A model generated the notes under the pieces. That model was given only the letters and a program-made list of their open reading frames with translations, did not search any database and was not told where the DNA came from. From positions 1,186,010-1,250,009 of the forward strand of contig CAUJNA010002890.1 in assembly GCA_963377175.1 (NCBI GenBank): a stretch of 64,000 nt of DNA. Reading direction: 5' to 3'. Source of the DNA: Effrenium voratum. Lineage: Eukaryota; Sar; Dinophyceae; Suessiales; Symbiodiniaceae. This document shows, in pieces, positions 16,801 to 63,569 of this stretch (positions within the stretch are counted from its first letter, which is position 1; the number at the start of each line of letters is the position of its first letter). The translations under genes were made by a program, and so were the position numbers.

Positions 16801-19800
16801 AACAACAAAAAAACACGTCGGGGCAAGCACAAGTCTTTTCCCCCTGGAAGTCCACGGAAAAACCAAGAAATGCTCCATGAAAATCCACGAAAGGCCCACT
16901 CTGCTCGTAGATTCGGAGCTGGGACTTGAAGATGGCTCAGTGGATCCCAGGCGTTTCGTGGTGAGAGTATCTCAGCCTGGTGAGATAACCCACACGGAGA
17001 CGAAAAGAAACGGATCCACTGGGCAGGTTTTGGCCCCTGAAGATCAATTTCATTTGGGGAGACGTATCAGCGGGTTGTAGTTTGCTTACAAACAACTTAC
17101 TAGCTTGGAATCCGAACATCCAAGTAGTCACTAGTCCCAAAAAACCCAGGGTCGGAATCCGATCCTCAAAATGGTCCGGAAAAAGCGGGTAGCCAAGAAC
17201 CCATGGTGGGAACAGACAAGTATCCGGAAGTTGGCCAACTGTAGTTGGTGGCGTTTCTCACCGGATACTAAGCGACGTCAGGTTCTATTTGTTTTTGACG
17301 TCACCCAAGGTCTCTTTTACAAGGTATGAACTATTAAACCCACTGGTTGATGAATAGAGGGTGTGCGGGGATTCATTAGAGTGGAGGGGAACACACACGC
17401 ACACCCTATCAATAGAAGCGGTTTATTGCTCTGGGGTCAACATTAGTCACTTATTGTCACTACTGTGGATGGACGAAACCCTGCACCACCTAAGAAGCTG
17501 AAATGATGATTCCCCAGTAAATACCGACCAACAATGGTTTCAACCCTGGTTTCATTTGGTGGTGCGATTTCTGGATTTCGCAACCATCCACACGTTTTCG
17601 CCACTGTGTTCCTGGAGTCTCCATGACCCTTTAAAAATGGGTCACCCCAACAATTTGGGTACTGACCAACCATTTTTCAAGGGTCAGAAGGAGACTCTAG
17701 GCACTAGGCACCCTCTAAATTATGGTTGAAAGGGAAGCCACACGCACTGTATTTTCTAAACTCTCCCAAACTGCAGCCATTGTGCCTGGGTCTTCTCTGA
17801 AAGGATTTGATTCGGGGTTGACTTCCAACAAAGACCCTTGCGACGCGAGGAATGGAAGTCTTGCGGCAGGACGGAACGAACCCAATGCCTTCGGCTGCAA
17901 AGACGCCCTCATCGCTTCCTGAGTTGGACGTAGAATGGTTGGTCATCACCTAAAATAATGGGGTCATGGACCTATGTTTGAAGGGTCATGGAGACTCCAG
18001 GTGATTACCTCATAGGCTCCCGATGCGTTTTGGGCCCTAGGTTGTTTTCAAGGCAGAGGCGGAGGGGTCATGAGCCTTAGGGAATGACCAGCTTACTGGC
18101 AAACAAGAGTTCGGACTTGTGTTGGTTCGATTTTGATTGGAAGTGAGTGTTTGTTGGTAGCTGCCTTTTTGGTTTTGAAGTGAACAGGGGTTCCATGTTC
18201 ACACCAGGGTCCTTGTGCGAAAAGAGGTCAAAGGACAGCCTCCAAAGAAGGTACTTGTACCCTCTGGACAATATTTGGGCTGGTTGGTTTTATGTTGGCC
18301 TACGCTAGCCCAATGGCTTGATTACGTAGACCAAGTACTGTGGTGGTCATTTGCACTAATCCTTGACAATGCGTCAGTTGTTGGTGTTTGAACGGTTTAA
18401 GCCGTTCACCAGCAGCGCCGCGGCACCAGCGCCCTGTCAAGCAAAGGATGACGCTGCAGCCGAGCAATAAGCAACCAATTGGAATGATTACTCTTGTGGT
18501 CTCGACTGCCCTTTTGGACACGTGTGAAGTGGCCTCTTGGTGGGTCTTGTTTCGGCTTCCTTTGCTTCACGCGTTGTCAGGTTATAACAGATATACTCCG
18601 ACTCACCAACATTGAAGAAACGAGAGAGTCAATTTCCCGAAAACACGCGGTCAACATCCTATTTTTAAAGGGTCAGAAGGAGAATCCAGGTATCTTCGAC
18701 TGGTGGTCAAAAGTCAGCAACTCGACTGTTTTTTGCAGTCTACAGTTGGCTGAAAGCCGATGGCGCAAGTCGATCGGTTTCCTCGTCGCCATCACCTTTA
18801 CTCGGTCTAAGCTCGGTTTGGGGCAGTTTTCAGGAGGGTTTCAAAGGAGAGTTCCAGAGGGTGGCGGGGCTGTCGGGGATATCACCCGGCCTAATTTGTT
18901 GGGTTGACTTACCCTCCCACCGATAACTGGAAAACCCTGTTCCGTTTCAGAGGACCCCCTCTGTCAGGCTAAAGTACTCACTCTTCGGCTGCAATCCTGG
19001 CTGCCACGCAAGGAGCTGCTGGTTGCCGCTGGTGTGGTTGCCTCAGCAGTTCCCCAAAAAGGTAAGCCAACGCCCAGTGCCACGATTGCTTGGTTCAAGC
19101 TTTTCCTTGCTGGTTCCTAAGAAACAACCGGCGGCAAAAAGGATGCGCGCTTCTTTTCCATGGAAGTCCACTGGAGGTTTGGGACACAATGGTCACCTGG
19201 AGCCGTGCCCCATGGTTTTTGGGATCATATTCTACCACAATGAAAGGCTGCAGATGTTTGCCTCCATATTGTGTTGCCTATGTCACAGGACGTTTCACAC
19301 ACACACACAGTGCTGACACCAGTCAATGATTGAGTTGGCTAAGAACCCTCTTTGTCAAAACTAGGTCCCCCGGTAGTGCCCTTCTCTCCCCTTTTTTAGG
19401 GGAGGGTTCCCCTACTAAAGTAGACTACAGAAAGAAAGTTGGTACCCTTATTCTAACAAACCTCTACTGGAGGACCTAGTACAGGTTGTGGCCAATTTCA
19501 TGGTTCCTATAGCTGGTTTGCTAGACCCACCACTTTTGCTTTTGGGTTCCCCACTACGAACGTGAACATGGCCAACTAAAAGTGGCACCTAGAAAGGATC
19601 GAGACGCAAACTTGGTCTCCCTGGTTTGGAGACGGATGGTTTGGTTGTCTTTCGGAAGGGCACCACCTTGTTTCAGGGTATCAACCCTTTATCCAGAAAG
19701 GGGATGCTGACAAACCCCGGAACGATGATTCCCCGGCAAATGCCACCAAACAATGGTTTCAACCGTGGTTTCATGTCGTGGTGCGAATTCGATTTCGCAG

Positions 19801-22800
19801 CCCTCCCATGTGGAACTGGCCACCAACAGCCGAACGCTGAGGTGGCATCCCTCGGGGGCATGCTGGCCGTGCAAGGGCCCTTGCCTTCCATCGAGGCAGC
19901 ACCGCTCGCGACGGACCCTGTCTACTTCATGTTGCTTAAGAGGGTAGTGCCAGGGTTTTTGTTGATGCCACAAATGGGTTTCTGGACTTCAGAATTGTCT
20001 TTGTCCAGGGGGCTTAATTAAGCAAATGGAAGTTTAGGCGTTGTGTGCGGCCTTTGTTGGGGTTGGTTGAAAGGGCAAAACATGGACAATCGAAATCCAT
20101 AGCAACATGGCTTAGCATTTGGGGTTTCCTGGACCTTCCTTGTTCACCCCTTTTTCTGCAGAAATGACCTATAAGAAAGTGATACGAAGGCAGACAAAAG
20201 AAACTGGTCCTTTGGGGGTGGTGGTTTAAAGGGAAACCACATGGAAAACCAAAATCCAATTCCGGGCCCGGTCACACCTATTTTGACACACACGCACACA
20301 CACACACACACCCTTTTTGATTCGTTTTTGGACAGTAGTTTGAAGGGCGAGGGAGACATCATATTTGGCTGCGGGGTGCTTTGAAACTAGCTTAAATCAT
20401 GACCATAGCAGCAACATGATAGTTGTTTGGCCGCTCATAGTACCTTAAGGAAAAATGCATTTCGAAGGTTCTCTAGGTCCCGCAGTAGTGCACTTTTCTG
20501 CCTTTTTTTGGGGAGGGTTCTCTAACGAAATTGGACTACAGAAAAAAACGTACCCTTAGTCTTACTTCTCTACTGGAGGACCTAGTGCTAAGGGGGGGCT
20601 TTGTTTAAGCACCGTCTCCAAGGTAATTGTGGACTTCGCTTTGGGCAGAACCAATTTAGTTTCTCGGAACTCAGGGTCCCTGGATCTGTACCGCACTTTG
20701 CTGAGTTCCGTTTTGGGAAGAGACAAGTTTGGACTCCTTTTGGCCAGTCCACTCGATCGGAACTGAGTTGCGGGTGCAGGTTGAAGACATGTCAAAAGGC
20801 AGTCGTTGCGTCGAATCAAGGTGTGAGTTTGCTCTATGAGCATGATTTTTAGGGTTCAACCCCTATTCAAAGAAAGGACCCAAATTAGATGATGACAATC
20901 CTTACCCAGGGTGGTGTGATGTGGTGAAGGGAAGTAACGCCCCTCTATGACAAGCACGGCGTTTGTCCTATAACACTCAAGGGGTGTTGTTGCCCTCATT
21001 CCAAATATTTGGACCCGTACAGTGATCGATCATGTTGCACGTGGTTTAAGAGAAGTTAAAGTACCCATTGCAGTAGTCAAACGCCCTTTCGCCTGGGTTA
21101 ATTAGTAGGGATGCTCATCAACATTCATCAACCGTTTAGACGAGGGTGTAGACAGCAATATATGCAGTTCCTTGGATGATTCCATGATCCCTCTTCAAGT
21201 TTCGACCCCTCTACAAATCCGACATTGCATCAACGCAAAAGAAGCTTTGACCATGGCACATGCGGAATGTAATGGAGTTGCGTTGAAGGCAAAAGATCCT
21301 ATGGTTGTCAAAGGCCCCCGCCGCCAAAAAAAAAAACGGGGGCCCCCAAACCCAATAGAGGCTAGGGTGCAAAAGTGCCTGCGTTTGTTTCTTCTAGGTG
21401 TGCTGCTGGAAAACGGGGGGGGGGGCGCTGGCTGACAACCATGGCGAAAGAGAAGCCAGCCAAACGTGTGGAGCTCTTCTTTGCGAACGGACGGTGTGGT
21501 TGTTGCCGAGGATTCGAACGGAGTACAAGCAAACAGTACATAGCGTTTAAGGGCCCTAGGGACTACATCAAAAGGAGCCCTTTTGTCCCATGGGATTTTG
21601 GTGTTCATTTAAACCGAGCTGGAAAGGGCACTTGGATGTTTCGCCAAGTCTTAGTAAGTGGAAAGGACCACTTGGGTTATAACCCACTAAAACGTTAACT
21701 CCACACGAGGGACATATAAGTCTTATCCACAACTTCCTGTACAACTTGGCAACAGACAACCAAGTAGGGTTGGTTTAAGGGGAAAGGCAAGCATCCGTGT
21801 CTGGGATGTTGACCAAGGTATCCGTTCCCTATTGGGATAAGATGCCCCACACCCCACACCCCACCCCACCCCAAAGGACTTGTTCTCAGGGGAGAAGCTT
21901 GGCTCGAGTCCCTTGGCTTTTACAGAAATTCTGTGAGTTTCATGCCCCGAAATGGACCCGATCCTGTGGATGGTTTGGAAATCCATTTCGCACCGTTCAG
22001 AAAAATCCAACGGTGTGATTCGATTCCCCAACGGAAATACCATCCAACGTACTGGTTTCTTTTGGGCCTGGTTTCATTTATGAGTGTGAGACGCCAGGGC
22101 CCCAACTTGCAACGCTATGGTTTCAACCCTGGTTTCATTTGGTGGTGCGAAACGGATTTCGCAACCATCCACAGTAGCAACGGCTGACGAAACGGGGATG
22201 GGGGTAGCTGGCCTCTCTAGCTCCCAACAGCTCCCCCCAATCTTGGCCCACCGCACTCCAAAACTGGTTAGATTATGTTTTGTCCTTTGTCTGCCCTACT
22301 TGGGTGTTCGGCCAAGTTGCTAAGTTGGTAACCTAGGTCATAACCCACTTGCAAGTCCCCCCAAGTGGGGTACCCCTGTTATTAGTCTACCGTAATTACT
22401 TGGCTCTTCGGCGATAATGCGGATTGGGGGAGCCCAGGAGCCACTGCAAAGCGTGGCCTCGAAACGCAAATCCATTTGAGCCCTGGCCGTCCAGGGCCTG
22501 AACGCTCTGGGATGGGGCTGCCTCGCGCTAGCGCCGCACTCAGCGGTCTGTTTGAACGTGTGCATTATACATATATAGATATATACAGACTAATCATGCA
22601 TACATATATACACAAGACACGTGTACATTCTTGTGTTTTATTTTGCCACTGCTTGAAGCCAGCATACTCTAATCCAATACTAATTTGGAGCCGACTGAGG
22701 GGAACCATAGGAAGGTCATGATCCGTAGGATGGTTCTTCTTGCAGTGGCTCCCCGCGCCATGGCTCTGAATGGCTCTATTCTGACCTACTGGGATCCCTT

Positions 22801-25800
22801 GCTATGGTCTCAGGAGGTACTGGAACCCTTTTCAACCCCCCAAACAGCGCTATGAATGGCTCTATTCTAAACTAATGGGATCTCTTAGCCCTTTCAACCC
22901 CCCCAAATGTCCTAACCAGATACCAAGGCACCCGGGAGTAGCTTGTATCAGACCGCTGGAGGCTGGAGGAGCCCAAAGCAAATCGATCTTTAACCTTTGG
23001 TTTCCCTGATTTGGGTATGGGTCAAAACTAAACCACCCGGGGACCGCAGGTTTGAGTCCTTGTTTCCATTTAGGGCAACCTATTTTGGGTACATATTTTT
23101 GTCCCACAGCCACGTTTAGTAAAGGTCCCAAAAGGTGATCACCTTTTATTGCCAGGTCCTTCGGGCCCGTGAGAATTCTGGTTCGATCAAAGCCAGAAAC
23201 CACCTGGAGTCTCCTTCTGACCCTTTAAAAATGTGTCAATGACCCCAAATTGTTGGGTAATGACCCCATTTTTCAAGGGTCATGGAGACTCCAGGCACCT
23301 GTGATCTTTCACTTAGGGTGACGTTTCCAGCCCTTCCAGGCAAGCTACTATAGCAGTTGCCACGTATTCTTAGCTCTTTGTTTTAAATTTTACCCTGGAT
23401 GGTTTTCCCTGGTTAGCTGTGGCAACCGAAAGCGCTGGGTTGGACAATGGTGAAACAATGGGTCCAGAGAGGGGTCGCCGGGGATGCACACTTGTCCGGA
23501 AATATTGCACAAGGGTCCAGAGGCCGATGCCAGGCCGACTTAGTTTGAATTATGCCTGGTTGTTCAAAGGGGCTTACACAGATGTGCATACCAATTGTGT
23601 TGCGTATATATATATATATGTATACTTGGAGTCTCCATGAGACTTGAAAAAAGGTAAATGACCCACTATTTTGGTTGGTGACCCCATGTTTTGAGGGTCA
23701 TGGAGACTCCAGGTACACATTTACATCGAACCAGCAAGCCCAGCATGTTTTTCAACTTGCGACGTCTCTCCAGGTCTTTACTGTGGCGCGGTGTCTTCTG
23801 ACGCAGGGCGTCATGTGCCCCACGATTGGGCAAAGGCGAGGATCGTCGCCCCATCCTGCACCAGTTTTTGTTGTTTTCGGTACTTATGGTTCCCTAAAAA
23901 ATGGGTTATGGCACCCCCAACATTATGGTTTTTACGGGTAGTTTGAGGGTCCAGGTATGCCTTTATAGGAACCCTATTTTGGTTTGTAGTGTTTGTTTGT
24001 TGGTATTTCCACGTTTTTTGGTGGTAGTGTTGACCCCATTTTGTTCAACCCCAGTTTATTAACAGGGGGGCACTCCCTGCCTTTAGTGGGAAATCAGATC
24101 ACTTTTGAAGGGGCCCCCACACGCCGCCTATTAATAAACTGGGGTTAATATTTGGGTCAACATTACTTGTTTGTTGGCGGCACCTTGTTTTGGACCCTCC
24201 AAATTTCCCGTTAAAAATACAAAAACAAAAACGAAACACGGTATTGCAACCCAAAGTTATATGGTTGGTGAATGCCCTCTTTTTTAAGGGTAGTTTCAGG
24301 TCCCAGGCAACTTGTCCGGATGTACGTTGACCCCCTTTCAACCCAAAATGCAATGAAACAACTACCCACACTTGGATGCTTTTTAGGGGATTCCGGCACC
24401 AAAGTCAACAGCTATTTCGTGGGGATCCATTTTGACAATCCCGGGTTAGGGGTTCTTCTCACCCCCGTTTTTTATTTTATTTATTTATTTTTTTTCGGCG
24501 GAGCCGGTTCTTTTTCCCCGTCACCGCCAGGCCGGGGGCGCTGTCGGTGGCCAAGGCGGTGCTCTTGGCCGGGTGCACCGTGGGGGTGGAGCTGCCCGGA
24601 ACCCTAGGGATCGGATCCGAGCGGAATCGAAGCGGATTCGGATGAGGATTGGACGGGAATGACCTTCGGTTCAAACCAGCAAGTGGTGCGTTTTTGAAAC
24701 CCCTTGGTCCATTCAAGCTGAAATGAATGTTTGGTTTTAATTTTCCCTTGGGTTGTAAAAGGATTTTGTTATCACTACTGGAAATATGTTCTCTCTTTTT
24801 TTATGGGGTCTTAACCAAATGGAAGGATGGGATGGGTGAATGACTAGGTCCCCCAGCTAGGTGCCCTTTTCCCGTTTCTTTTTTGGTTGGGAGGGTTCCC
24901 CTACAGAAAAAAGTTGGTACGCTTATTCTAGCCTCTCTGCTGGAGGACCTAGATGAACCAACCCCTTTCATTTGCAGAGTTTTACTGGAAAGGAAAATAG
25001 GAGTATTCACTTATAATCATATTCATTTGCACAAAATCATGTTTTTATAGTTTCCCTTAAGTTGGTTTTTCTGGAAATCAGAACATGGGGGGGTGGTTAT
25101 GATCCATGGAAGTGTTGACTCACCCCTGGATTAATTGACCAGTTCATTCATAGAGGCCATTTGAGCCCTTAGGGCATTTGCGGGGCTGATTTGGGGCCCC
25201 TTTTGGCACGGTTTCACACCAGACCTTGTGACCTTGAGGGCCTTCGCTGGGGGAGGGGGGGGGAGTTCTTCATCCGAGTTCTGCATTCACTTGAATCGAT
25301 CTACACCTTGACGGTGTCCATTTCTGGTTTAGCGGAAATTCAGGGCCTTGCGCAGTTCAGGGCCGCAAAACCTGTTGTTGGGTGTTCCTTGGGAAGTTTA
25401 CAGGTCCCCCAAGTGGAGTTACTCGTGGTAAAGGGGCATTGTTCTTGAACGAATCATGCGGAAGCATTTCCACGGATGGGAACCCGTCGCAGGCGTGCGG
25501 AAGCTTTGTGGGTTGACATCTGTTTTATTTTGCGTGCATGGAAAAGCTTGGAAACAATTAGATACATGGGTGTGGCTCAAAATTGAACAGGAGGGGTTAC
25601 GCAGGTTTTGGTCCATGTTTCCACTTACCAGGGTTCCATTTTGGTACCGGATTTTTGAGCCACGGCCACATCAACACAATGCTGCGTACAACAAGCGCAG
25701 CGCATGGAAGAGCAGTTGGCAACGACAGGCCAACCAAAGCAGCCGCCGGATTTAGCGGAAGGTTTGCGGGCGTGCGGAAGCTCCGAAGGGTGGCCCCGTG

Positions 25801-28800
25801 TCCCCACGTACTCGTAGCACCAATAGCCCAATGAAGCCACACGTTGCAGCAAACGAGGGAGCCCAAACAAGCCCTTATGAAGCCCCTAACAAGGCAGTAT
25901 TTCGGGCTTATTTGGGCTCCCTTCCCCCCCCCCCAGCCCCCTCTCCCCCAGTCCCCAAGAATTAAGCACTTGCGCTCGTTGTTAGGCGACGGAAAGCCAA
26001 CTGCCGAGTCGTTGCTGACATAAGGAGGCAAGGGCTTGCTGCGCGGCCTGCTGTCGGCAAGTGGTTCTGCTGTCGCTGCTCTGCTTTCGCATTCCTTTGC
26101 GCACCTTGCGGAAGCCAAGCTTGCAACACGTTCGCCGAAAGGAAACGGAAGCAAACGCTAAAACAGAACATGTACCGCAGAAATCCGCAGAAGGAACCTT
26201 TGGACACGCATCTGCGGAAGCTTGAATACCGTTCATCATTTTTTAAAGGACCAAAATCCAAACGTTCATTTCTCACTACTCATGGAAATTCAAGATCACC
26301 CTGCACCACAGGTGTGGTTGAAAGAACATTGCTTCAAGTGAGGCTTCGAGGCGCACGCACGTTGTCACAACCTGCGCGAACTGCGCAAGGGCCTCTTGCC
26401 GATTCAGGGCAGAGCCCAAGGCAGTTCGCGCAGCCCATGAGTTGGGGCCCCTCTTGGCAGGGTTTTTAGAGCGAAACTCCGAAGATCATCAACGAGTTCT
26501 GGGTGTTTACATGGTGACTACGAAGATTTGGACGCCCTTTGGATGGTTTGCTTGCGAACAAAGAGGCGACCAACTGGCATTGGATGTCTACCACGACATG
26601 GTTGTATTCCTATTTTGTGGTTTCAAACGGCAAGCCCAAAGGAACATCGAAGCCATTCTACAAGTAAAACAAACGCACCCACATGGACCCATCTCTTAGA
26701 TGACTGGGTTCTCCCAATTGAGTGCTGCTTTGAGTCCTATCTGGCACTCTGAGGTCATTGGTTTACGAGCCGCTGGGATGCACCAAGAAAGGGCAGGAAC
26801 GATCCTCTGGGACCGGTGACTTGGACCATCGCAGAGATCGTTGCAGTGGACTTTGTGTAATGATGCGCAAAGGACGATACCGGTATTAAGAGTACCTGGA
26901 CTGGCCCGAATCAAAAGTGGGTTAATGAACCCATGATTTAGGGTAATGACCAACCATTTTTGCAGGGTCATGGAGACTCCAAATATTTCTTTTGAAGTCG
27001 AATTACCCTTGTGGGGTGGTTTTGAAGGCAAGCCAAACGGACAACCATTGTGGTCCCCTAAACATTCGACCCACCCATGTTTGTTCCCCCGCACACTTTT
27101 CATGGAGCCCGCAACTTGTGAGGTCCCCAAAAGGAGTGTCCTCTAACCATAGGGTTTGTGGTGTTGGTGTTAGGGTTGAACGACCAAGGGCAACTCTCGC
27201 AACAAGGATTCTAGGGTATCTGCGACCAGTGGATCCCAGCTACCCCTGTTGTGTTGCCATTATCCTTCGATCCACAAGGGTGGGTTTTGGCGTCTTATGC
27301 AGGCAAGTGGAGTCACGGGTTTACCCTCCCATCAATTCACCTGGAACGTGACAGGGGGGTCCCCTTCAAGGGGCAATTGTCTTCCAGGACCCTCCTGTCA
27401 GGTTCCATGTAATTGATGGGAGGGTACCATTTAGCTGATTTACCTATTGGCCTTCAGGGTTCATTTTCCCCTGTTGGTTTTAAAATCAGCTACCTGGACC
27501 CTCACACTAGTAAAAATAAAAAATTCACCCCGGGGTCCAAGGGACATTTTGAGGGTCCAGGTACGTTAAACGGGTGCCGATTCTTCCCCACTCCAATGGG
27601 CGTTGTACTTAGGTAATAGCCATGATTGCAACCCACAGACGCCTGACGTACCGACTCGATCGCCCTGCAAGTAGTTCTAGGTTGCCATCTATTCTACGAC
27701 AAAAGCACATCTATGGACTTGACGGCCCGGACGTTCCTATGGACTTAGGCAACCTTTTCGTAGGCCCAGGGCTTTCCTTCTTCAACTTGTTGCGCCGAAC
27801 AAGCTACTGCCTCCTATGGCCCGGAGGTGCATTTAAGACTCAACTAGGTCCCCCAGTGCCCTTCTCTCGCCTTTTTTCGGTGGAGGGTTCCCGTACTGGA
27901 ATAGCCTATACCGAAAAAGTTGGTACCCTTATTCTAACAAACCTCTACTGGAGCAAGTCAAGCTCCCTCTGGGGCAGCGCCCATTGCCGCTTCCGCCCCG
28001 AGGTGGCACGGCTTTTGGTCGCTCCCCTGGCTGCCTTTTCCCGGCCGAGTCTTCCAGCAAGTCACCGTGATAGGCCCGGAGCGAGAGCCAGCGACGGAGT
28101 CTCCATGCCCTTCAAAAGTGGGTCAATGACCCCAGGTGGGTGTGTCGCTTTTTTGAGGGTAGCCCCTTGTCGTTGTTTTTTTCCTCTTCGGGAATCGCAG
28201 CAAACCCGAAATCCATTTCGTGGGGTCCGCCCCAGAAAAGGACGGACCCATGTGAGGGATCGGGACCCAAAATACTTTGCCAGGACCACTTTTTTTCGGG
28301 TGGACTAGGGCTAAAACTTGGTAAAACGAAGGCGCCCCATCAAAGCGAAGCCTCCAGCGGAAAAAAAACTCCATCTTTGCAGCCTGCAACTTTGGAGATG
28401 GCTCAAGTCTTCATGGCGCCTGGACCCTCAAGTTACCCGAAAAGAAGGTGAACTCACCAACCAGAGTCTGGGGGAAATCGCCATTTTCGGAGTTTGGAGG
28501 GTGCAGGCGGTTTGTGACTTGGCTGTGCGTTGCCAAATTTGTAGGTGGATAATAGCCATGTGTGTTCCACGAACAAGGTGAACTCCACTGAACGCGGGAC
28601 TTACAAGCGGTTTTTAAACTCAGGTTACAACTTACTAACTTAGCCACGAACCTCCAAGTATGGGTTTTCAATACATGGTCGTCGTTGGGAAACATGTTTA
28701 CATTTTTTGCTTCTTGTGGTTTAGTGGTTGAAATCCCCACTTAACTCCTGGACCCTGAAAGGACCCCTTTTTTCTGCCTTTGACCCATAAAAAAAGGGGT

Positions 28801-31800
28801 ACAAAGGCAGAACTAAGGGGTACTTTGGGGGTCCAGGCTCCTAATTTTTGCTCCCCTTCCAACGTCAACCAAGACCTCGTCGATGGGTTCAGGTTTGAAA
28901 TCGGGAAATCGTATCGCAGGCATTTGTGATGCCATCATGGCCAGGAGCTCAGCCATGTCCTCCAACTAGGTGCCCTTTCTTGACTGCTATTGGGTTGGAT
29001 CTTTAGATTTTGACTTTTTGGTTGAAATCAAGGGGTTTTCCACTAAACCCCTAAAAAGTAAACTTTTTGCAGGGGGGTCAACAGCAACCAAGCTTTTGCC
29101 GTTTCCTTTTTGGTTGGCAGGGTTCCCCTACTAAAATAGACGTCCTGAAAAATCGGATACCCCTATTCTAACCTCTCTGCTGGAGGACCTAGTCCAGGTT
29201 GTGTGAAAGCTCGTGGGCCTCCTCGAAAGGTGTGTATCAACTGGTTGTGTTTCTACCTGGAGTCTCCACGACCCTTCAGAAATGGGTTAATGACCCCATT
29301 ATGTTGGGTAAACCCCATCTTTAAGGGTCATGGAGACTCCAGGTACGGTGTTTGGTTTTGTCGGTGGTGGTTGTGTGTTGTTGAAGTACATTACCTGGAC
29401 CCTCAAAACTCTCCTTAAAATGTGTTCTTGTCCCTGGTGGACAGGAGCCCCCCCCCAAAAAAGATGATTCGTCAGTCTTCCGAAATTATCCCGGATCCAA
29501 AGTCTAAGCTTTTCTTACAGAGTTGTCTAGGTCCCCCAGTAGGTGCCCTTCTACCGTTTCTTTTTTGCGGAGGGTTCCCCTACGAAAACAGACTACAGAA
29601 AAAAGTTGGCACCCCTACCTCTTTACCGATGGACCTAGTTGTCTTCTTGTCTCGAGTCGTCTCCTTGGGCAAATCAGAGTGCGACCTCGCAAAAGCAGAG
29701 TGCAGCCGATTTGTTTCATGAAGGCTTCTTTCAGAAAAGGCCTCCCTTTACAGGTAGGGTCAACCAGCCCAAAAAGGGTATTGGCCGCTAGCTCAAGGAT
29801 TTGACACTCAAAGGGGGCCTCCCGCGGGTGTCTTTCCCACCTCTGGCGGGTATCTACTCATGCTCCGTAGTTAGTGATTCACCTGGATGAACAATATAAA
29901 TAAAGAAATCATTCAACCTCCCTCTGTTCAGTGAAGTTAATGCAACTTGAAGGGTTTTACGGAGGACCAAAAAGGCATCAAAGGAACACACTCCCTGTTC
30001 AGCGAAGTTAATGCAACTTCAAGGATTTACGGAGGACCCCAAAAAATCAACCCCCCTGTTCAGTGAAGTTAATGTAACTTCAAGGATTTTCGGAGGACCG
30101 CACAAATGAGGAGTGACTCCTATTCGAGTAAGGATTTCATCAATTCTAGAGGGTTCCTCTGACCAGTAGGGTCCTCCGGCTGAATCCTAAGTTTACACTA
30201 GTGGGTTATCACCCAGGTGGCTTTCCACTGACAAACATGGCAACGAACACCCAAGGATCTGGTGCAAGGGACTCTCCAGTGCAGGACATCCTCGAGAGGT
30301 GAGAGCGGAGCGGCAATCCAGACCTATGTTTTTTCCAGAGCACCTAAGGACATTATTATGGGTATCAAAATGAGTCGGGTTGTAATATACTCGCACCACC
30401 CCGCAACAGGTATATACCCTAAATCTTACGAGCTTTAAACCGCCCCAAAGGAAACAAATGTATGAATAGATAGAACATATATTTATATATGTTTGCATGC
30501 ACGCATATATATATATATACATGTCTATGTGCATGTATACGTGTGTATAAATACATGAGTAGATACGCAACGCCATGAAATAACTAAAAACAACTAAATA
30601 TGCAAACACATTAACAACAACAATAAGAATGTTTATAAGAATGCAACACAACAGTAACTGTATCAATATATGAGCAAAACTATAAGCAACTACATCGATG
30701 GAACTGAACAGACAAATTGACTAAAGACTAAACACACAAATGCATGCACAACTAAACACATACATTGATAAGTCATTACTTTGAATACATAGATAAGACA
30801 AGATGCACAATGAAACAAAACTATGTATATACACACCCTCAAAGAAAAAGCACGACACCCGCCTGGTTCCTGGTTCGCTTTTCCCCCATTTGCCGGTGCT
30901 TCCGTCTCGAGTCTTGAGGTCATTGGACACACCCGGCTGATACAGATCACCTCCGCGGCCTTTGGCGCTCTGCTGGTGCCCTTCTACACCGTCACTGTCC
31001 TCCCAGTTGAGGCGCCTGAGACACCGTCACGCAGAAACGCGGAAAACGCGAGCGAGCGAGGGTGAGGCAACCGGTGGGTTTCGGAGTCAGCGGCAGGGTA
31101 TCACTTGGAGGTTCGGCCAGGATACCAAGGCCATCTCCATGACCCTCAAAAAATGGTGTCATTGCCCAAAATACAGGGGTCATGAACCCATGTGTAACGG
31201 GACACGGAGACTCCAGGGACTTAGAAGCGGGTTGCGACTTGGGTTACTCAGGTTACTAACAACGCACTTGGCCGATCGCCCAAGCATCCCCATTGGCAAA
31301 CCGTTTTGATCGCCCAGCCACGGAACAAATGCAGGTATCTTTTGTGGGAGGTAGCTGATTTTACATGGGGTCGCTGGATTTCCCCTAGCTCCTAGGCCGT
31401 CCTAGGCTGTTGCCTTAAGACCGTGTTAGTGGTAGATATACATCCTAAACGTACCTAGAGTCTCCTTCTGACCCTTTAAACATGGTTGGTCATTGCCTAA
31501 AATAATGGGGTCCTGGACCTATTTTTTGAGGGTCATGGAGACTCCAGGTACTCCCTCAGGGGTCACTGGATTTCCCCATCAAAAGTTGATTAAGTTGCAG
31601 GTGGTTTCCATTGAAACTGCCGAAACATCCAAGGGCCCCCTTGTTTTCGGACTTTCATTCATACCCTCCCACCAGCTAACATGGAAGTGCAAAAAGGCCA
31701 ACTAACCAAGAGGAAAGTCGTCTTTCAGGGGTCTGAATGCACAAACCCATGTTGGGAGGGTAGGGGGGGACTTGGTTTTTGGGACCCATGAAGCCAAGTA

Positions 31801-33592: not shown

Positions 33593-33795
33593 ACCATTTA
33601 AATCTTGGTGGCTCCCGCCATCCCCTTAGCCTTTTAGCTTATTATTGTTTAGTGGCAGTTTCCATTTAACCCACTAAAGGTTAAGCTTTTAGCGGGGGAT
33701 CTGAGGGCAGCCCGGAAAATGTACCCTACAATAACCACGTTTTGTTCTTCTTCTTTTTTCCGCAGCTCAACCCAAACCGCCAAGTAGCATAGGGG

Positions 33796-33937
33796 GCAGG
33801 CAGCTGCCCAGATGGGCACGGTCGGTTTGCATCGTCACTTGCCAGGCCCGCAAGAATGGCACGGAGCCAACGGAAGGCAAGTGGCCGCGGTCGATATTTT
33901 GGAGAGTTTGCTGGGCCAGGAGGGTCCCTTGCTTGGA
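33796..33937 (+). CDS. exon-like segment directly abutting a family B element
   Basis: Acceptor GGGGCAG|GCA followed by 47 open codons (it includes HGANGRQVAAVDILESLLGQ). The frame runs into CTAG|GTCC, the left border of the B element at 33938, which would be a GT donor. If the element is the intron, coding would resume at 34055. The reading fits phase 0, but the next downstream exon (34341) is not directly joined. Confidence 0.4.
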
Positions 33938-34090
33938 CTAGGTCCCCCAGTAGTGCCCTTTCTCACCCCTTTGTTGGTTGGGAGGGTTCCCCTACTAAAA
34001 TAGACTACAGAAAAAGGGGTACCCTCATTCTAACCTCTCTACTGGAGGACCTAGTAGAGTTTGCTGGGCCCGGAGGGTCCCTTGCTTGGA
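33904..34090. mobile_element. family B element flanked by a 34-bp direct duplication
   Basis: The element occupies 33938-34054. The 34 bp before it (33904-33937, ending GGGTCCCTTGCTTGGA) are repeated at 34057-34090 with one mismatch. A typical DNA transposon target duplication is 2-10 bp, so this is unusually long. Confidence 0.8.
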
Positions 34091-34340
34091 TGTTCGGGCA
34101 AGTTGGTACCTGGGTTATAGCCCGCGAATAACGATGAACTCTGCTTGGGGAGACTAGCAGAGGGTGTCAAGTTGGGGTACTAACCACTTACTGACTTGGC
34201 CGAAGATACAAGTGGTGCCTCCTATTTGAGTTTACGGATGTTATTTTTACTTTCTGGGACACCATTTGAAGGGTAAATTTGACCAGTCGACCAATTCACT
34301 CAAAATCCTTTCGCATTTGAGTTGACCTTTGGCACCTAAG

Positions 34341-37884: not shown

Positions 37885-39895
37885 TGACATCTGGAAGTAG
37901 TTCCTTGATGGTTCCCAGGCAGCGACTCAGGTTGTTAGCTTTGTAGTTTGCATGCTCCTTGGTGGTTCCCAGGCAGCCGGTTTGGTTGTTAGCTGTGTAG
38001 TTGGCATACGGAAGTAGTTCCTTGATGGTTCCCAGCCAGCCAAGAAAGGTTGTTAGCTTTGTAGTTGGCATACGGAAGTAGTTCCTTGGGGGTTCCCAGC
38101 CAGCCACTTAGGTTGTTAGCTTTGTAGTTGGCATACGGAAGTAGTTCCTTAGTGGTTCCCAGGGAGCCGGTTTGGTTGTTAGCTTTGTAGTTGGCATACG
38201 GAAGTAGCTCCTTGGTGGTTCCCAGGCAGCCGGCTAGGTTGTTAGCTTTGTAGTTGACATACGGAAGTAGTTCGTTCATATTCCCAGCCAGCCACTTAGG
38301 TGTTAGCTTTGTAGTTGGCATACGGAAGTAGTTCCTTGCTGGTTCCCAGGCAGCCGGTTAGGTTGTTGGCTTTGTAGTTGGCATACGGAAGTAGTTCCTT
38401 AGTGGTTCCCAGGGAGCCGGTTTGGTTGTTAGCTTTGTAGTTGGCATACGGAAGTAGTTCCTTGGTGGTTCTCAGCCAGCCACTTAGGTTTTTAGCTTTG
38501 TAGTTGGCATACGGAAGTAGCTCCTTGGTTGTTCTCAGCCAGCCACTTAGGTTGTTAGCTTTGTAGTTGGCATACGGAAGTAGTTCCTTGATGGTTTCCA
38601 GCCAGCCACTTGGGTTGTTAGCTTTGTAGGTGGCATACGGAAGTAGCTCCTTGGTGGTTCCCAGCCAGCCGGTTAGGTTGTTAGCTTTGTAGTTGGCATA
38701 CGGAAGTAGTTCCTTGGTGGTTCCCAGGCAGCCGGTTAGGTTGTTAGCTTTGTAGGTGGCATACGGAAGTAGCTCCTTGGTGGTTTCCAGCCAGCCGGTT
38801 AGGTTGTTAGCTTTGTAGTTGGCATACCGAAGTAGTTCCTTGGTGGTTCCCAGCCAGCCACTTAGGTTGTTAGCTTTGTAGTTGGCATACGGAGGTAGCT
38901 CCTTGGTTGTTCTCAGCCAGCCACTTAGGTTGTTAGCTTTGTAGTTGGCATACGGAAGTAGCTCCTTGGTGGTTCCCAGGCAGCCGGTTAGGTTGTTAGC
39001 TTTGTAGTTGGCATACGGAAGTAGTTCCTTGATGGTTCCCAGCCAGCCACTTGGGTTGTTAGCTTTGTAGGTGGCATACGGAAGTAGCTCCTTGGTGGTT
39101 CCCAGCCAGCCGGTTAGGTTGTTAGCTTTGTAGTTGGCATACGGAAGTAGTTCCTTGGTGGTTTCCAACCAGCCGGTTTGGTTGTTAGCTTTGTAGTTGG
39201 CATACGGAAGTAGCTCCTTGGTTGTTCTCAGCTAGCCACTTAGGTTGTTAGCTTTGTAGTTGACATACGGAAGTAGCTCCTTGATGGTTCCCAGGCAGCC
39301 GGTTAGGTTGTTAGCTTTGTAGTTGGCATACGGAAGTAGTTCCTTGGTGGTTCCCAGCCAGCCACTTAGGTTGTTAGCTTTGTAGGTGGCATACGGAAGT
39401 AGCTCCTTGGTGGTTCCCAGGCAGCCGGTTAGGTTGTTAGCTTTGTAGTTGGCATACGGAAGTAGTTCCTTGATGGTTTCCAGCCAGCCACTTGGGTTGT
39501 TAGCTTTGTAGTTGGCATACGGAAGTAGCTCCTTGGTTGTTCTCAGCCAGCCACTTAGGTTGTTAGTTTTGTAGTTGGCATACGGAAGTAGCTCCTTGGT
39601 GGTTCCCAGGCAGCCGGTGAGGTTGTTAGCTTTGTAGTTGGCATACGGAAGTAGTTCCTTGATGGTTTCCAGCCAGCCACTTGGGTTGTTAGCTTTGTAG
39701 GTGGCATACGGAAGTAGCTCCTTGGTGGTTCCCAGCCAGCCGGTTAGGTTGTTAGCTTTGTAGTTGGCATACGGAAGTAGTTCCTTGGTGGTTCCCAGCC
39801 AGCCACTTAGGTTGTTAGCTTTGTAGTTGGCATACGGAAGTAGCTCCTTGGTTGTTCTCAGCCAGCCACTTAGGTTGTTAGCTTTGTAGTTGACA
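37885..39895 (-). repeat. minisatellite of about 32 units of 63 bp
   Basis: On the plus strand each unit reads GGTTGTTAGCTTTGTAGTTGG, CATACGGAAGTAG(C/T)TCC, TTGGTGGTTCCCAG and (C/G)CAGCC. Because 63 is a multiple of three, one minus-strand frame is open across most units and would encode a 21-residue repeat (KELLPYANYKANN plus a variable NL(S/T)G(W/C)LGTT part). The frame is broken by a nonsense change at 39232-39234, a one-base deletion near 38300 and a truncated unit near 37950. Most differences between units change the amino acid. Convincing exons on both sides are on the plus strand, so I treat this as non-coding satellite DNA, probably intronic. Confidence 0.85.
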
Positions 39896-39900
39896 TAGAT

Positions 39901-41432: not shown

Positions 41433-44394
41433 GCAAACGTGATTTGGAAGGAGTTTTGTTGCCTCGGCACCCTCTGGCAATTGAGTGTTTCTCGGTTGAT
41501 TTGTCGATATCTAGACGTAAATCCAGCAGGTTCATGAGTCAAGCATGGGAGCCGTGCATTGGCGCAGGCGTGGAGGAACACATGTAATGTAGCAAAGGCT
41601 TTCTCGTATGCTTCTGCTAGCACTTGGGGCGCCAAAACCCTCCAAATTGGAGTTGACCTCTGGCTATTGCAATGAATAACCTTCCCCAAAAATATGTGCT
41701 TTCCTAGAGTCTCCATGACCCTGAGAAAAACTGGGTCATTACCTGAAATAATGGGTCGGTCATATGAACCTATTTTTAAAGGGTCATGGAGACTCCAGGT
41801 TGTAACTAAATGTGCTTTGGAAGCTTTGCGGTTTCGCTATTGCGCTGTTGTACGAAGTTGTTTGTCAATGAACGAAGATTGTACAAACATACTGTGACAT
41901 CTTATGTATGCGTTACGCTTGAATCACACCCTTTGAGAGAGCAGCAGGGCAAGAATGCTTTTGCTCTATCTTGACGACGGTGCAGGGCTCCTTAAAAGAT
42001 ACATTTTGCACATTTGAAACATGGCTTTTGCCACCAAAATACAGGGAAACCACCATTTACAAGGCAATGTTCAGGTGTATAATGCAAGGATCCCTGTTTG
42101 ACGCAGTCCAGTGGACATCCATCAAACATGCTTAATTCAAGAATTCAATCCCGATTGGCAGAAGCCGCGAGCACGTCGTTCAAGGGGTAGATTTGGCGAT
42201 GCTTTCGGTGTTCCAAGGAAACCGAAAGGACAAAGAGCATTTTGTGGGTCCTTCTAGTTTGCCAGATACGGAAATCTGGTTCATTCATTCCGCACAGCAG
42301 CTGTACGCATATGCTTTGGATTGTAGAACTTAAGACCAAATCATGGGTTGACAGAAACAGCTTTCCTGGGTCCCAACGCCTTTCCACTTGGCATGTTGCA
42401 GGCTCAAGCGGGTGTATATTTTAGAAGGCCAAGTTCCATTGGTCTCCGCTATGGCAATGTCGAACATCTCGACTGGGACGTTTGGGCACCCGCAGCTCTG
42501 CTCCAAACCCTGCCTGTTCTTGCACTTGTGCCCGTGTCCGAACGCATCTGCATGTCACTTGGCTCGTTCCTGAAGTTTTTTCTAAGGACTCTTGAAAATT
42601 TGGTCATCACCCAAAATCTTGGGGTCGTTGACCCATTTTTTAAGGGTCATGGAGACTCTAAAACCTGTCTAATTTTGTCGGCAAAAATGGCTCTCGTTTT
42701 TTGTTTTTGTTTTTTGAATATATTCTGCGATGGGTAGCTCGATCCACATGAGGGAGTCGTTGCGGTCGGTCCTAGAGTCTCCTTCTGACCCATAAAAAAT
42801 GGGGGTCATTACCTAAAAGAATGGTTGGTCATGGACCTATTTTGAAAGGGTCAGAAGGAGGCTCTAGGTTGTACCAACGGCCATTTTTAAAGTGTGCTTT
42901 GGGGGCTATGGGGTCATATGGACTCCAGTTTTGATCATGGGCTTTGTGGAGTCTCCATGACCCTTCAAAAATGGGGTAAGGACCCCATTATTTTGTGTAA
43001 TGACCCACCTTTTCCTAAGGGTCCTCAGGGAGACTGCAGGTCCAGTGTTTTCTCGTTTTTATGGTTTTGCCGTAACGAAGGTAACTATTGCCACGCGGAG
43101 CACTCCTCGAAGTCGCGGCTGACCTTGCTGCGGCGGCAAGACCTGAGGAGCCTGGAAGAGGCAGACCGCATGGCGCTGGTGCTGCCGCATCTACGGGCCA
43201 AAGACCTTCCGGGGACAGAAGAGGCGGAAGGATTTTCGGTTTCGGTCCGCGGAAGTTTGCCCTTTGACTGTTTCTTTTTTGGTTGGGAGATTCGGTTCCC
43301 CTCATAGACTACAGAAACAAGGGTTAAGCTCTCCACTCGATTTTGGAGCCCCGGAGTTTTCGGGGTCTTGAAGTCGGCAAGCCCAAGCATCCGGTTCCTT
43401 AGCCTAGAAATGCTTTTGGTGTTGGGTGTTGCAGTTTCACCGAACTTAATCCGCTAACAGTTAGTCACTTTTAGCGGATCTGAAATCGGGCCCAGTTTTC
43501 AGAACCCCATATCATGGTTCTTGTTGGGACACATTTTACATTGTTGCTTATTGTGGTTTAGTGGTGAAAATCCCATTCCACTGAACTGCTAAAATTTGAG
43601 AATGTTTGCTCCCCAAACCGAACTTGTCAACCAAGATATGGTGACCCCATTTTGGGGTGTCCCCAATTTAATCCATATGTTTTTCCATATTTTCCCATAT
43701 TTTCCATATTTTTCCATATTTTAATCCACTTAGTCACTTTTTCCATTTTTTTTTGCGGCGGAAGTTGGAGTGGCGGGAGCTCCGGGCCTTGAAGCGGCGA
43801 TTTTTTTTCCCCGTTTTCCGGCTCCCGTGGATCGGTTTCACTCGGTTGCAACTAGTGCCCTGATTTATCCCAAAGTTTGGGGAAGGATGATTTGCCTGGA
43901 AACCTAGAGTCTTTTTTCTTTGTTATTTCTGACCCTTCAAAAATGGTTGGTCATCACCTTAAATAATAGGGGCATGGACCTATTTTCAAAGGGTCAGACG
44001 GAGACTCCAGGTGTTTCAGGAACCAGTCCTGGTTGAAATGGTGCCTAGGGGAAACATGTTTGTAGCTCAGGTTGGAATGGCGAACGTGGTTTTGTCCTGT
44101 TTGCAATTCGGGAGTTTGGAGCCAATGGTCACTGGTTGCCCGGAAAATCGGCCCTGCAAGGTTCTTGCGTTGCTTGAGCTGCACCTGGCGAGTTTGCCGC
44201 AGCCAGCGAGGCCAGCTCTAGAGCGCCAGAAGATAAACAGTCTGAATCGGAGCCTGAGCCACCTCAAGTTCAGACAGTTGGTTGATCTATGTCCCTGCAG
44301 CCAGCTCACGCACATCCAAGAGGCCATGTCGAGTCTACGCGTCCACATAGCTGTGCAAGATCCCTCCATGTTTGAAGGCTTCTTCTCGCTGTGA
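41308..44394 (+). CDS. CCCH-type zinc-finger protein, dinoflagellate-like
   Basis: Exons at 41308-41432, 42402-42553, 43081 to 43223 or 43238, and 44020-44394. Joining exons two and three through a GT-AG intron (42554-43080) gives Cys-Pro-Asn-Ala-Ser-Ala-Cys followed by Asn-Tyr-Cys-His-Ala-Glu-His, i.e. C-x5-C-x2-CH-x2-H. It is preceded by GTFGHPQLCSKPC. This matches a finger motif I recall from many dinoflagellate proteins of unknown role, presumed RNA-binding. Downstream residues (LPHLRAK region, then a Leu-rich C-terminus) are helical. The stop is TGA at 44392-44394. Three family A elements fill the finger-splitting intron, and one abuts the last exon. Exons further upstream are likely but not fixed. 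Confidence 0.65.
41450..41700. other. region open on both strands
   Basis: The minus frame (95 codons, it includes LAPQVLAEAYEKAFATLHVF) looks protein-like. A plus frame of about 45 codons also exists. It may be a decayed antisense gene or chance. Unresolved. Confidence 0.3.
42402..42553 (+). CDS. CCCH gene, exon with first half of the finger
   Basis: Acceptor ATGTTGCAG|G, donor GCAT|GTCACT. It encodes 50 residues ending in the GHP motif and four Cys of the finger (LCSKPC, CPC, SAC). Confidence 0.65.
42554..43080 (+). other. intron inside the zinc finger, largely made of family A elements
   Basis: A 527-base GT-AG intron carrying three family A copies (42588-42662, 42771-42869 and 42947-43040). 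The right border is ACGAAG|GTAAC. Together the three elements make up about half of the intron. Confidence 0.65.
43081..43238 (+). CDS. CCCH gene, exon with second half of the finger
   Basis: Begins GT AAC TAT TGC CAC, completing the finger (NYCHAEH), then a basic and Leu-rich helix (RLTLLRRQDLRSLEEADRMA). A GC donor at 43224 or a GT donor at 43239 both give the phase of the last exon. Confidence 0.65.
43902..44012. mobile_element. family A element abutting the last exon of the CCCH gene
   Basis: Left end ACCTAGAGTC carries a 15-bp T-rich insertion; right end GGAGACTCCAGGT is followed by GTTTCAG|GAA, the acceptor. Only seven bases separate element and exon. Confidence 0.8.
44020..44394 (+). 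CDS. CCCH gene, last exon
   Basis: Acceptor GTGTTTCAG|GAA. It encodes 124 residues ending at TGA. The first part has VEMVPRGNMFVAQV, and the C-terminal part is Leu-rich and amphipathic (it includes SLNRSLSHLKFRQLVDLCPC). This is one of the longest clean exons in the window. Confidence 0.65.
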   Translation, partial: EPVLVEMVPRGNMFVAQVGMANVVLSCLQFGSLEPMVTGCPENRPCKVLALLELHLASLPQPARPALERQKINSLNRSLSHLKFRQLVDLCPCSQLTHIQEAMSSLRVHIAVQDPSMFEGFFSL

Positions 44395-47867: not shown

Positions 47868-48430
47868 CAGCACTTTGATTAGGAGCAGGGTCCGTCAGGG
47901 GCGATCGTAAGCCTGGTGAGATAACCCGCTGAACAGAGACAAACAAAACCATGACTTTTGTGGGGTATCTCACCATGGTTATTGCACACTTACTATTTAC
48001 AATGCCCCTTCAAGTAGGGCCCTATGGGCCTATGTGTGTGTGTGTGTGTTTTGGACCGGGACCCTCCCCAGAACGAATTTCAGGATCCTTGAATCACTCA
48101 CTCGGGTCTGTCTCAAAAATGGCCTCTCCAAATTCTGGTGGTTTTAGTTGTTTTCGTTTACTGTTTGCCTGTAAAGCCACTCCAAGAGGGGTCCCCTCAA
48201 AAAAGACCCACCCAACAGGGCTGATACCCTTCCTCCATTTGCTTCAGGATACCTGTTATATTCCCCTCTTGGTTTTAAAGGGAATTTAGCACTACTGTAC
48301 ATATGTTGCTCATTTTGTTCCACTTCTAAAATAGACCACAGGAAAAAAGTGAGTAGCCTTGTTCTAACCTCTCAAATCTGGAGGGCCTAGAAAAAAAACC
48401 CATGGAAGCCTTGGTCGTTTGTTCGCTCAG

Positions 48431-51210: not shown

Positions 51211-51449
51211 GTCCAGCGAAAGGGTGCCCAGAAACCGTTCCTTTTTGCTTCAGAATGAGCTCCCCTTTTCGCTTTTATTTTTTTTATTTTTTGGGGTTTC
51301 TTGGTTTTCCACGAACCCCGGATTAAGCAGAACCCCTGGTTGATTTTGATATGGGGAGTGTCCCCTTTTAGTGGGGATTCATCACTTCTGGAGGGAACAC
51401 CCCCTAATTCGGGATGGGTTTATTATTCCTGGGTCAACATTACCGTTTC

Positions 51450-51710
51450 TTTTTTGGGGGAGGGTTCCCCTTCTAGAATAGACAGGATAAGCTCAGGTGA
51501 TATCTCCAACAGGCGGTGCTCTTTTTAGTTCGCACCACCCCGCAGCCCTCGCAGAACCTCGTGGTGCCCTTGTGGAACCCTGGTGGAACCCTCGTGGACT
51601 CAGGGCCGCCCCGGACCACCCCGGAGCCCATCTGGTCTGAGACCCCAAAGCTTCCAGCTGTTGGGGAAAAAAGGGTACCCTTATTCTAACCTCTCTACTG
51701 GAGGACCTAG
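51450..51710. mobile_element. family B element interrupted by exon-like DNA
   Basis: The family's GGGAGGGTTCCCCTTCTAGAATAGACA block (51455-51485) and its right end GGGTACCC...GGAGGACCTAG (51670-51710) are separated by about 180 bp. The insert begins, after CTTTTTAG, with a Pro/Thr/Trp-rich open frame (it includes QNLVVPLWNPGGTLVDSGPP). This is the second copy with this arrangement. Confidence 0.6.
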
Positions 51711-53699: not shown

Positions 53700-54300
53700 G
53701 TAAGTGGGTTGGTCCCCTTATCTCAGTTGCCCAGTAGTGCCCTTTTCAACCTTTTGGGGAAGGGTTCCCCTTGGCCACTGGGCATGTGAGTTACCATGGT
53801 TGTACCCTACTTACCAAGCCTTTATCCCAGCATTGCTTCTCTAAGCTTCATCGTGGCTGGCCTGGGTTTGCCTCGCGGGACAAGCGAAACGGGCACTCGC
53901 GTGAGGGGGACAAATGATCCAGTCGCTGTTCAAAGTTAATCCTAATCCCTAGTGGGACAGCACTACTGAAAGGGGCAGGGTGCGTCAGGTCAGTGGTTAC
54001 TTTGCCTGGTTATAACCCACTGAACGGAGACTTACAACCATGCCTTTTGTGGGTTGTCTCGCCATGGTTATGTTCCACTTACTACGTTCAATGCCCCTTT
54101 AAGTACAACAAGGGAACGCCACCATTTGCCACAAGTCGCATGTGGGTGTGGGTTTATTATTATTGTCATTATTTACAGTTATTATGATTGTCTCTCATTG
54201 TGGGGGGGTCGCCGAAGAAAAACAAATAATTTGGTTTGGTTGCTTGAAAGGTTCAGTTGTTTCTTTTCGGGTGGGTGGGGGAACCCCAATTTTGAGACAA
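53700..54300. other. non-coding stretch
   Basis: Contains a partial family B copy (53725-53790) and a foldback element of the GGGCAGGGT family (53967-54105). No exon was recognised. Confidence 0.5.
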
Positions 54301-54309
54301 CCCCATGTG

Positions 54310-54392
54310 GCGCCTCGCAGACGCGACGACTTCGTGGGCCAAGCGGTTTCAAGGGCACTCAAGGCGCTCCGCTCGCGCATCGCTGCAAAGCA
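54310..54392 (+). CDS. exon-like segment, unknown product
   Basis: The frame [20 protein letters not shown] is charged and helical. It runs into the CCAACCCA minisatellite. Other frames are also open. Confidence 0.4.
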
Positions 54393-54560
54393 CCCACCAA
54401 TCCACCAACCAACCCACCAACGCACCAACCCACCAACCCACCAACCCACCAACCCACCAACCCACCCACCAACCCACCAACCCACCAACCCACCAACCCA
54501 CCAACCAACCCACCCACCAACCAACCAACCACCCAACCAACCAACCAGCCAACCAGTCCC
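54392..54560. repeat. CCAACCCA minisatellite
   Basis: About 170 bp of CCACCAACCCA-type units. All frames are open through it, producing Pro/Thr- or Gly/Trp/Val-rich artefacts on the two strands. A similar but distinct repeat (CCACCAGCCA) lies at 59517-59605. Confidence 0.95.
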
Positions 54561-54661
54561 CTGGCCAGGGCAAAGCCCCAAACCGTGGCTAGTAAAGCAA
54601 ACACCCCTTCCGGGTTTTATCCCCCTGCAAAAAACAAGTTGAACAAGGGCACCGCAACCCA

Positions 54662-54845
54662 CTGCGCTGGGTGAAGTCTTTCACCACCAAAAACCCCGCC
54701 CGCTGGCTGGGCGGCCGCATCCCCAGCATCCGCGGTTACCTGGTGTCAGGGCGGCGCATTGGGGATCTTGCTAGATATACTGTGGCTTTTGCGCTCGGCT
54801 GGTTTTGCCAGTGTTCAGTCGGGAATGTGTTGTACCTTCCATGTT
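54662..54845 (+). CDS. exon-like segment, unknown product
   Basis: The frame (it includes SFTTKNPARWLGGRIPSIRG) is open for about 60 codons to a TAA at 54843. GT sites at about 54733 could end it earlier. Clear rise in GC. Confidence 0.45.
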
Positions 54846-63328: not shown

Positions 63329-63427
63329 ACCTGGAGTCTCCTTCTGACCCTTTAAGAATAGGGTAACATGACCAACCATTATTTTAGGTATGATCAACCA
63401 TTTTTAAAGGGTCATGGAGACTCTAGG
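63329..63427. mobile_element. family A element
   Basis: Complete copy (ACCTGGAGTCTCC ... GGAGACTCTAGG). Confidence 0.9.
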
Positions 63428-63569
63428 GAAACAATTTACTCTTCCATTTCAGCTACAAAAGGTTGATCACGACCTTTTGCGAAAAGTAGCTCAGTGGTGA
63501 ACACCTTCCTTTTGAGGATGTTTCAAAGGGGGGTAAGACCTTCAGAAGAGCTTCTCCTTGTTTTGGCAG

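Follow-up and report, generated by a model that had tools for sequence, protein, structure and literature searches.

Introners of the dinoflagellate Symbiodinium microadriaticum are described, in the parts of PMC9860276 drawn on here, as elements that have 4-bp target site duplications (TSDs) and terminal inverted repeats (TIRs), bring the 3' splice site with them and take the 5' site from the TSD. Transposable elements are held to drive intron gain in dinoflagellates (Roy et al. 2023, Curr Biol, as cited in PMC11453091), and the genes of dinoflagellates are said to lie in unidirectional clusters (PMC11453091). In mammals, the strand bias of intronic elements has been explained by selection, by insertion bias or by exonization (PMC1794541, PMC5717806, PMC2176070). 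The repeat studied here, family B, lies in a stretch of 64,000 nt from Effrenium voratum (the window), where a sequence-only reading had called its copies introner-like. That description stands as far as it concerns a mobile repeat with the TIR and 4-bp TSD architecture of introners, and is not supported where it makes the borders of the element splice sites. We read family B as an intron-dwelling, strand-locked MITE; the family itself is real, is present in very many copies, and follows a strand rule that is unusual.

The focal copy is a TIR miniature transposon of 117 bp on the plus strand, located exactly at 33938-34054 (nhmmer 1-120, E 2.6e-36) as had been proposed. Its repetitive nature is likewise borne out: across both strands of the window there are 20 occurrences of the opening CTAGGTCC (reverse complement GGACCTAG), compared to 1.78 +/- 1.19 in shuffles. 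The left TIR, CTAGGTCCCCCAGTAG (33938-33953), pairs at 15 of 16 positions with the right TIR, CTACTGGAGGACCTAG (34039-34054); just outside lie the two copies of the 4-bp TSD, TGGA (33934-33937) and TAGA (34055-34058), which agree at three of four positions. The element also adjoins a 35-bp direct repeat (repeat family D15), with its left copy at 33903-33937 and its right copy, 97% identical, at 34056-34090. We treat this repeat as local, because exact adjoining repeats never exceeded 5 bp when lengths of 2-12 were tested in 49 family B copies; a target duplication of 18-35 bp, an idea taken from the same repeat, was rejected on this result. Imperfect longer likenesses between the flanks were noticed by eye at 250-677 and 12418-12538. 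With the focal site as query (element at query 239-355), at least 39 other places in the genome matched at 87-95% identity, over most or all of the element and no more than 28 bases of flank; scoring covered 40 of 2,117 candidates, so that paralogous flanks of the site could be hidden.

At E<=0.01, nhmmer finds eight end-to-end copies in the window, 109-162 bp long, together with eight partial ones. All eight complete copies start with CTAGGTCC and end with CCTAG, so that the CTAGGT and CCTAG termini originally reported are correct. Besides the focal one, the complete copies, all on the plus strand, lie at 1445-1606 (162 bp, with an internal insertion), 7917-8028 (flanks TATAG/TATAG), 12418-12538, 19361-19479, 20473-20585, 24844-24952 (exact TSD ATGA) and 29527-29638 (exact TSD TTGT). 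Partial copies, again all plus, are found at 43247-43323 and 51439-51500; as 3' parts at 597-677, 29093-29192, 48317-48390 and 51666-51710; lacking the 3' end and within a 231-aa open frame at 27844-27953; and as a weak match (E 1.2e-4) at 53729-53771. The 3' part at 597-677 belongs to a stretch, 250-677, in which a B-like 5' end, CTAGGTCCCCCGGTAG, and this 3' part enclose ~330 bp of unrelated DNA carrying a 205-aa open frame (3-617); it could represent either two truncated copies or one composite element of larger size. Two copies share a downstream flank (8029-8078 and 19480-19529, TAyAGGTTGTGGCCAATTTCATGGTTCC), and B therefore sits in, or has moved with, another repeat there.

The genome-wide search that the sequence-only reading had proposed was carried out on 1.156 Gb in 3,699 contigs and confirms that the family is abundant. 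The pattern CTAGGTCCN{60,90}GGACCTAG gave 1,460 matches compared to 19 for the reversed control; the 27-mer of the 3' end, TTCTAACCTCTCTACTGGAGGACCTAG, occurs 5,539 times with no control match, and its last 18 bases, CTCTACTGGAGGACCTAG, have 11,328 exact occurrences, again with none in the controls. At one locus (L013:1200-1880, contig C8) five copies form a tandem array, most of them with one and the same ~37-bp spacer: a nascent satellite built from B.

From 49 distinct copies we derived a consensus of 112 bp, to which the copies have a median identity of 94.6%. Its ends, CTAGGTCCyCCAGTAG, are the 16-bp terminal inverted repeats of a MITE and pair at 15 of 16 positions. The 49 copies come from 65 loci, 35 of which were chosen by exact ends, so that in those 35 the matched copy has its ends by construction; five copies belong to the tandem array at L013. 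The 4 bp just outside both CTAG ends are identical in 17 of the 49 copies, where re-paired flanks would give 0.44, and 13 further copies, the focal one among them, match at three of four positions. Exact repeats of other lengths are few (2 bp, six copies, 3.2 expected; 3 bp, three, 1.06; 5 bp, two, 0.10), so the duplication has the fixed length expected of a MITE, with two copies carrying 5-bp repeats instead. The flanks of the copies mostly differ, apart from the L013 array and the flank shared at 8029/19480. Since the duplication sits outside CTAG, CTAG is part of the transposon, being the end of the TIR, and not part of the target; CTAG as the target duplication is thereby ruled out. It had been supposed that removing the element as an intron would leave a single CTAG. 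With the TSD outside CTAG, splicing at CTAG|GT...CCTAG| would leave the 4-bp duplicate as well as CTAG, 8 nt in all, and therefore a frameshift in any coding exon. Neither this duplication, nor the focal 35-bp repeat, nor the placement of the 16 window copies on one strand had been mentioned before.

It is this placement that sets family B apart. While B has 16 copies on the plus strand of the window and none on the minus strand, family A, a second TIR repeat, has 12 plus, 15 minus and 3 ambiguous among 30 clusters of >=30 bits (Fisher p 1.5e-4 vs B), and 14 of 26 neighbouring A pairs agree in strand. Family A is ~97 bp long (ACCTGGAGTCTCC...GGAGACTCCAGGT) and commoner than B in the window, with 34 places on both strands, for example at 4331-4430, 6720-6812, 31452-31549 and 63329-63429. 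Elsewhere in the genome, 75 of 79 neighbouring B pairs are co-oriented among the first 100 of the 5,539 places listed (binomial p 5e-18), and the four strand switches in this set fall across gaps of 80-887 kb. The first 49 places, with strand assigned from the end motifs and C11:19271 dropped as not being a B copy, give 29 of 31 pairs on the same strand; on contig C3 all 28 B copies among the matches listed are on the plus strand, from 52 kb to 1.54 Mb (1.49 Mb).

To relate strand to transcription we used a single test gene, PRP8, which lies on the minus strand of contig C832 (loci L070-L074, 45.2 kb). It contains nine B matches, and all nine are in gene sense; family A has no match in this stretch of 45 kb. 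Given this and the strand runs, B would most simply be oriented by transcription; unidirectional gene clusters would then account for runs of such length, gene direction having been determined in PRP8. Outside the elements, pyrimidine tracts followed by AG are more frequent in B-sense than in antisense (46:21 in the window, 28:16 in 13 other loci), as are runs of 15 pyrimidines, at 125:30 and 198:10 with overlapping matches included. Splice-like motifs of other kinds have no B-sense bias in the window (GTAAG, 28 sense and 44 antisense; CTAAC, 33 and 34). For 12 HSP70 loci, taken in the sense of the gene, the pyrimidine-AG test was flat or reversed (6:8, 1:7), and the pyrimidine runs stood at 29:2.

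We consider it likely that family B is an abundant non-autonomous cut-and-paste MITE, strand-locked by selection at the RNA level, whose ends are generally not splice sites. Such an element would be moved by a transposase supplied in trans, and a 4-bp staggered cut at insertion would account for the duplicated target that is seen outside CTAG. The copies would lie in transcribed, mostly intronic DNA, as they do in PRP8, and would be kept almost exclusively in the direction of transcription, in line with the strand runs on the listed contigs and with the gene sense of the PRP8 copies. The likeliest cause of the lock would be RNA-level selection against antisense copies: read in antisense, B would present a pyrimidine run ending in the acceptor-like TTTTTTCTGTAG, followed by the donor-like GGGTAAAA, and might thus be mis-spliced into messages (in the consensus, the antisense strand would expose TACCCTTTTTTCTGTAG with donor-like letters downstream). 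Sense copies would be carried silently within introns. An in-frame intron would arise only at targets that start with G, where the duplication would supply the donor and the terminal CTAG the acceptor; such cases would be a minority. What speaks against selection is that the removal of ~95% of antisense intronic copies would require it to be very strong.

The strictness of the lock makes an origin at insertion a serious rival, doubtful as we find it: the transposition complex would distinguish the two ends and read which way transcription or replication runs through the target. Near-identical TIRs normally lead to a random direction of insertion, and those of B are nearly identical (15/16); moreover, no transposase is in hand. 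On the other hand, the near-absolute runs, among neighbouring pairs as well as among the listed matches on contig C3, look like a rule and not like the residue of selection, and family A is without a lock in the same window. For human L1, a retrotransposon, a bias in transcribed genes at the time of insertion has also been argued, in the text of PMC5717806 consulted. On a further reading, which we would call possible and unlikely, a transposon with near-identical ends would be strand-locked to transcription throughout the genome, in introns too, either because insertion reads transcription or because sense copies act at the RNA level, for example in hairpin-assisted or nested splicing with the element's own branch-point-like TTCTAAC and AG, in a way that renders antisense copies intolerable. 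If this were true, B would be a reservoir of introns that are born only when the target starts with G.

PRP8 also allows the proposed splice borders to be checked directly. A PRP8 probe sequence resolved 33 introns; donors were restricted to GT, GC or GA and acceptors to AG, with the base after AG left free. One microexon was added by hand, and pairs with a gap of >15 residues or out of probe order were skipped; the starts of two B copies (10004 and 39298) were placed by eye past the nhmmer hit. The donors are GC in 19 introns, GA in 11 and GT in three, and 30 of the 33 acceptors (91%) read AG|G; mostly non-GT donors with AG|G acceptors fit a dinoflagellate nuclear genome. Five B copies lie in resolved introns of 441-1299 bp, at distances to donor and acceptor of 14/622, 585/57, 1154/23, 92/723 and 79/264 nt, so that in none of the five does either end coincide with a splice site, at least three of them having a degenerate or missing end; the other four B matches lie upstream of the first mapped exon. 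The distances to the nearest exon edge (14, 57, 23, 92 and 79 nt) look non-random, in a sample too small to say more. In this one gene, then, none of the five testable copies is a spliceosomal intron end to end or nearly so, as introners are. The claim that the copies sit in introns thus holds in PRP8, one gene, where they are in gene sense, while for the window its support is weak.

The base that follows the element points the same way. Genome-wide, the exact 3' end of B is followed by G in 2,118 of 11,328 cases (18.7%), and in the sampled copies in 7 of 49, compared to 30 of 33 PRP8 acceptors (Fisher p 2e-12 for 7/49 vs 30/33). No B-created intron was found in the material examined, the 33 resolved PRP8 introns included. 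The ends of B are generally not splice sites, and we read B as making introns rarely at best; splice-like terminal letters in a repeat are no evidence of splicing. As an observation on the PRP8 introns themselves, each of the 11 GA donors is followed by an exon that begins with GA, and 10 of the 19 GC donors by one that begins with GT, as if the introns bore traces of short duplicated targets; direct repeats at the intron ends are in slight excess only (mean 3.1 vs 2.7 when re-paired).

These results also bear on the view that B is an introner of the Symbiodinium microadriaticum type, inserted in exons with a GNNN target as 5' site and CTAG as 3' site, the many remaining copies being later or failed insertions. 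The architecture is that of Fig. 2B in PMC9860276 (4-bp TSD, TIR and a carried 3' site, as far as the figure goes). An insertion of the form GNNN[CTAG..CTAG]GNNN would yield exactly the G[CAT]...AG|G introns of PRP8, and exon insertions would produce a strand lock. Exact TSDs able to donate a 5' splice site (G[ACT]) do exist, in 4 of 17 cases, but this is about chance (3.2 expected with equal bases), and G after CTAG, at 18.7%, stays below 25%; there is thus no enrichment of suitable targets. None of the 33 PRP8 introns is B-made, and exon insertion alone leaves the sense-only copies within PRP8 introns unexplained. We regard this view as rather improbable. The geometry is possible for B at targets that start with G, and B may therefore seed introns occasionally.

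Searches for exons around the copies gave little. At E<=0.01 none of 100 plus-strand window ORFs had a Pfam match (100 of 150 listed, six in tandem-repeat stretches and the shortest being left out). Pfam scans of ORFs next to other B copies, 80 in sense and 80 in antisense (80 used of 110 listed per strand), revealed no exon. When 10 ORFs of both strands were run at E<=0.1, two matches appeared, neither of them informative: a disordered repeat (PT) in 54024-54671 and, below the cutoff, a Rad50 hook. Reading frames across the excised sites of 13 B copies contained no convincing exon, and a codon-usage scan trained on HSP70 exons gave little signal. The focal copy had been said to abut an open frame; this is weak, since the frame at 33793-34128, one of the 100 searched, crosses the element completely. 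Upstream of it, at 33764-33937, a pyrimidine tract and CAG are followed by an ATG (33812) that starts a frame of 42 codons ending at the focal element, a possible first exon by its look, without a Pfam match. At 37956-39897 a 63-bp unit (21 codons) is repeated ~31 times in tandem, with the minus strand open for 311 and 310 aa.

Two further gene tests could not be used for B. The 30 HSP70 loci have no B match at E<=1e-3, which makes them unusable, and a low-GC stretch of contig C1791 taken as a gene test has no B or A match. In the 17.5 kb taken from it, this contig (1.04 Mb; L066, L067) has 27-30% GC, compared to 49-52% in the window and PRP8 (49.3% for the window itself), and carries an intron-rich gene of the HSP70 family; it is a possible contaminant.

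In the original model the B copies are themselves introns with the borders CTAG|GT...CCTAG|, inserted at a CTAG target. The termini of the complete window copies agree with it, and the consensus has a branch-point-like TTCTAAC ~20 nt before the 3' end. Set against these are the 8 extra nt left after splicing, the PRP8 copies away from every splice site in a gene where GT donors number three of 33, the scarcity of G after CTAG when compared to the PRP8 acceptors, and the lack of any Pfam-supported exon in the ORFs of either strand around the copies; we consider this model very improbable. That B is an ordinary MITE without an orientation rule, the 16 of 16 in the window being due to chance or shared descent, would suit the TIRs and TSD, which are usual MITE features, and has next to no probability in view of the co-orientation of neighbours on other contigs and of copy flanks that mostly differ.

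If introners are MITEs that land with a usable target, then B, as a strand-locked MITE, shows the whole population and not the successes alone; a B-like family would allow the rate of intron-making per insertion to be measured, along with the strand rule that applies. Since an unlocked MITE lies alongside as a control, the strand lock also makes insertion polarity and RNA-level selection directly testable against each other.

Among described systems, the introners of Symbiodinium microadriaticum (Gozashti et al. 2022, PMC9860276, in the parts used here) are like B in their TIRs, 4-bp TSD, 3'-terminal AG and dinoflagellate-type genome. They are defined by matching annotated introns, as that text has it, whereas all five testable B copies lie inside larger introns; its main text does not contain the words antisense and sense. 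B may be a relative of these introners, or the same family, the likeness being one of architecture and not of sequence. The dinoflagellate introners of Roy et al. 2023 resemble B in being transposable elements, judged by the description in PMC11453091 alone. Short inverted repeats and direct repeats of 3-5 nt, as in B, are also reported for the introner elements of Amoebophrya (PMC7789003) and in the annotation of introner elements in Symbiodiniaceae and Prorocentrum (PMC11114475, PMC10666404), in the excerpts at hand; in Amoebophrya and P. cordatum these repeats are by definition at or near the intron ends (PMC7789003 and PMC10666404, same excerpts), while those of B, in PRP8, are not.

As regards strand, the titles listed in our literature search on transposon orientation included mammalian retroelement work, and none of them dealt with a strand-locked MITE, which is weak evidence of absence. 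Intronic ERVs (PMC1794541), L1 (PMC5717806) and the antisense splice sites of mouse L1 (PMC2176070) share with B a strand bias within genes, according to the passages cited; ERVs and L1 are, however, retroelements biased towards antisense (PMC1794541 and PMC5717806, in those passages), while B is a TIR element biased towards sense. Generic MITEs (non-autonomous TIR DNA transposons) match B in being short, with TIRs, a fixed-length TSD and thousands of copies; B differs from them in its near-absolute orientation relative to its neighbours and, in PRP8, to the gene.
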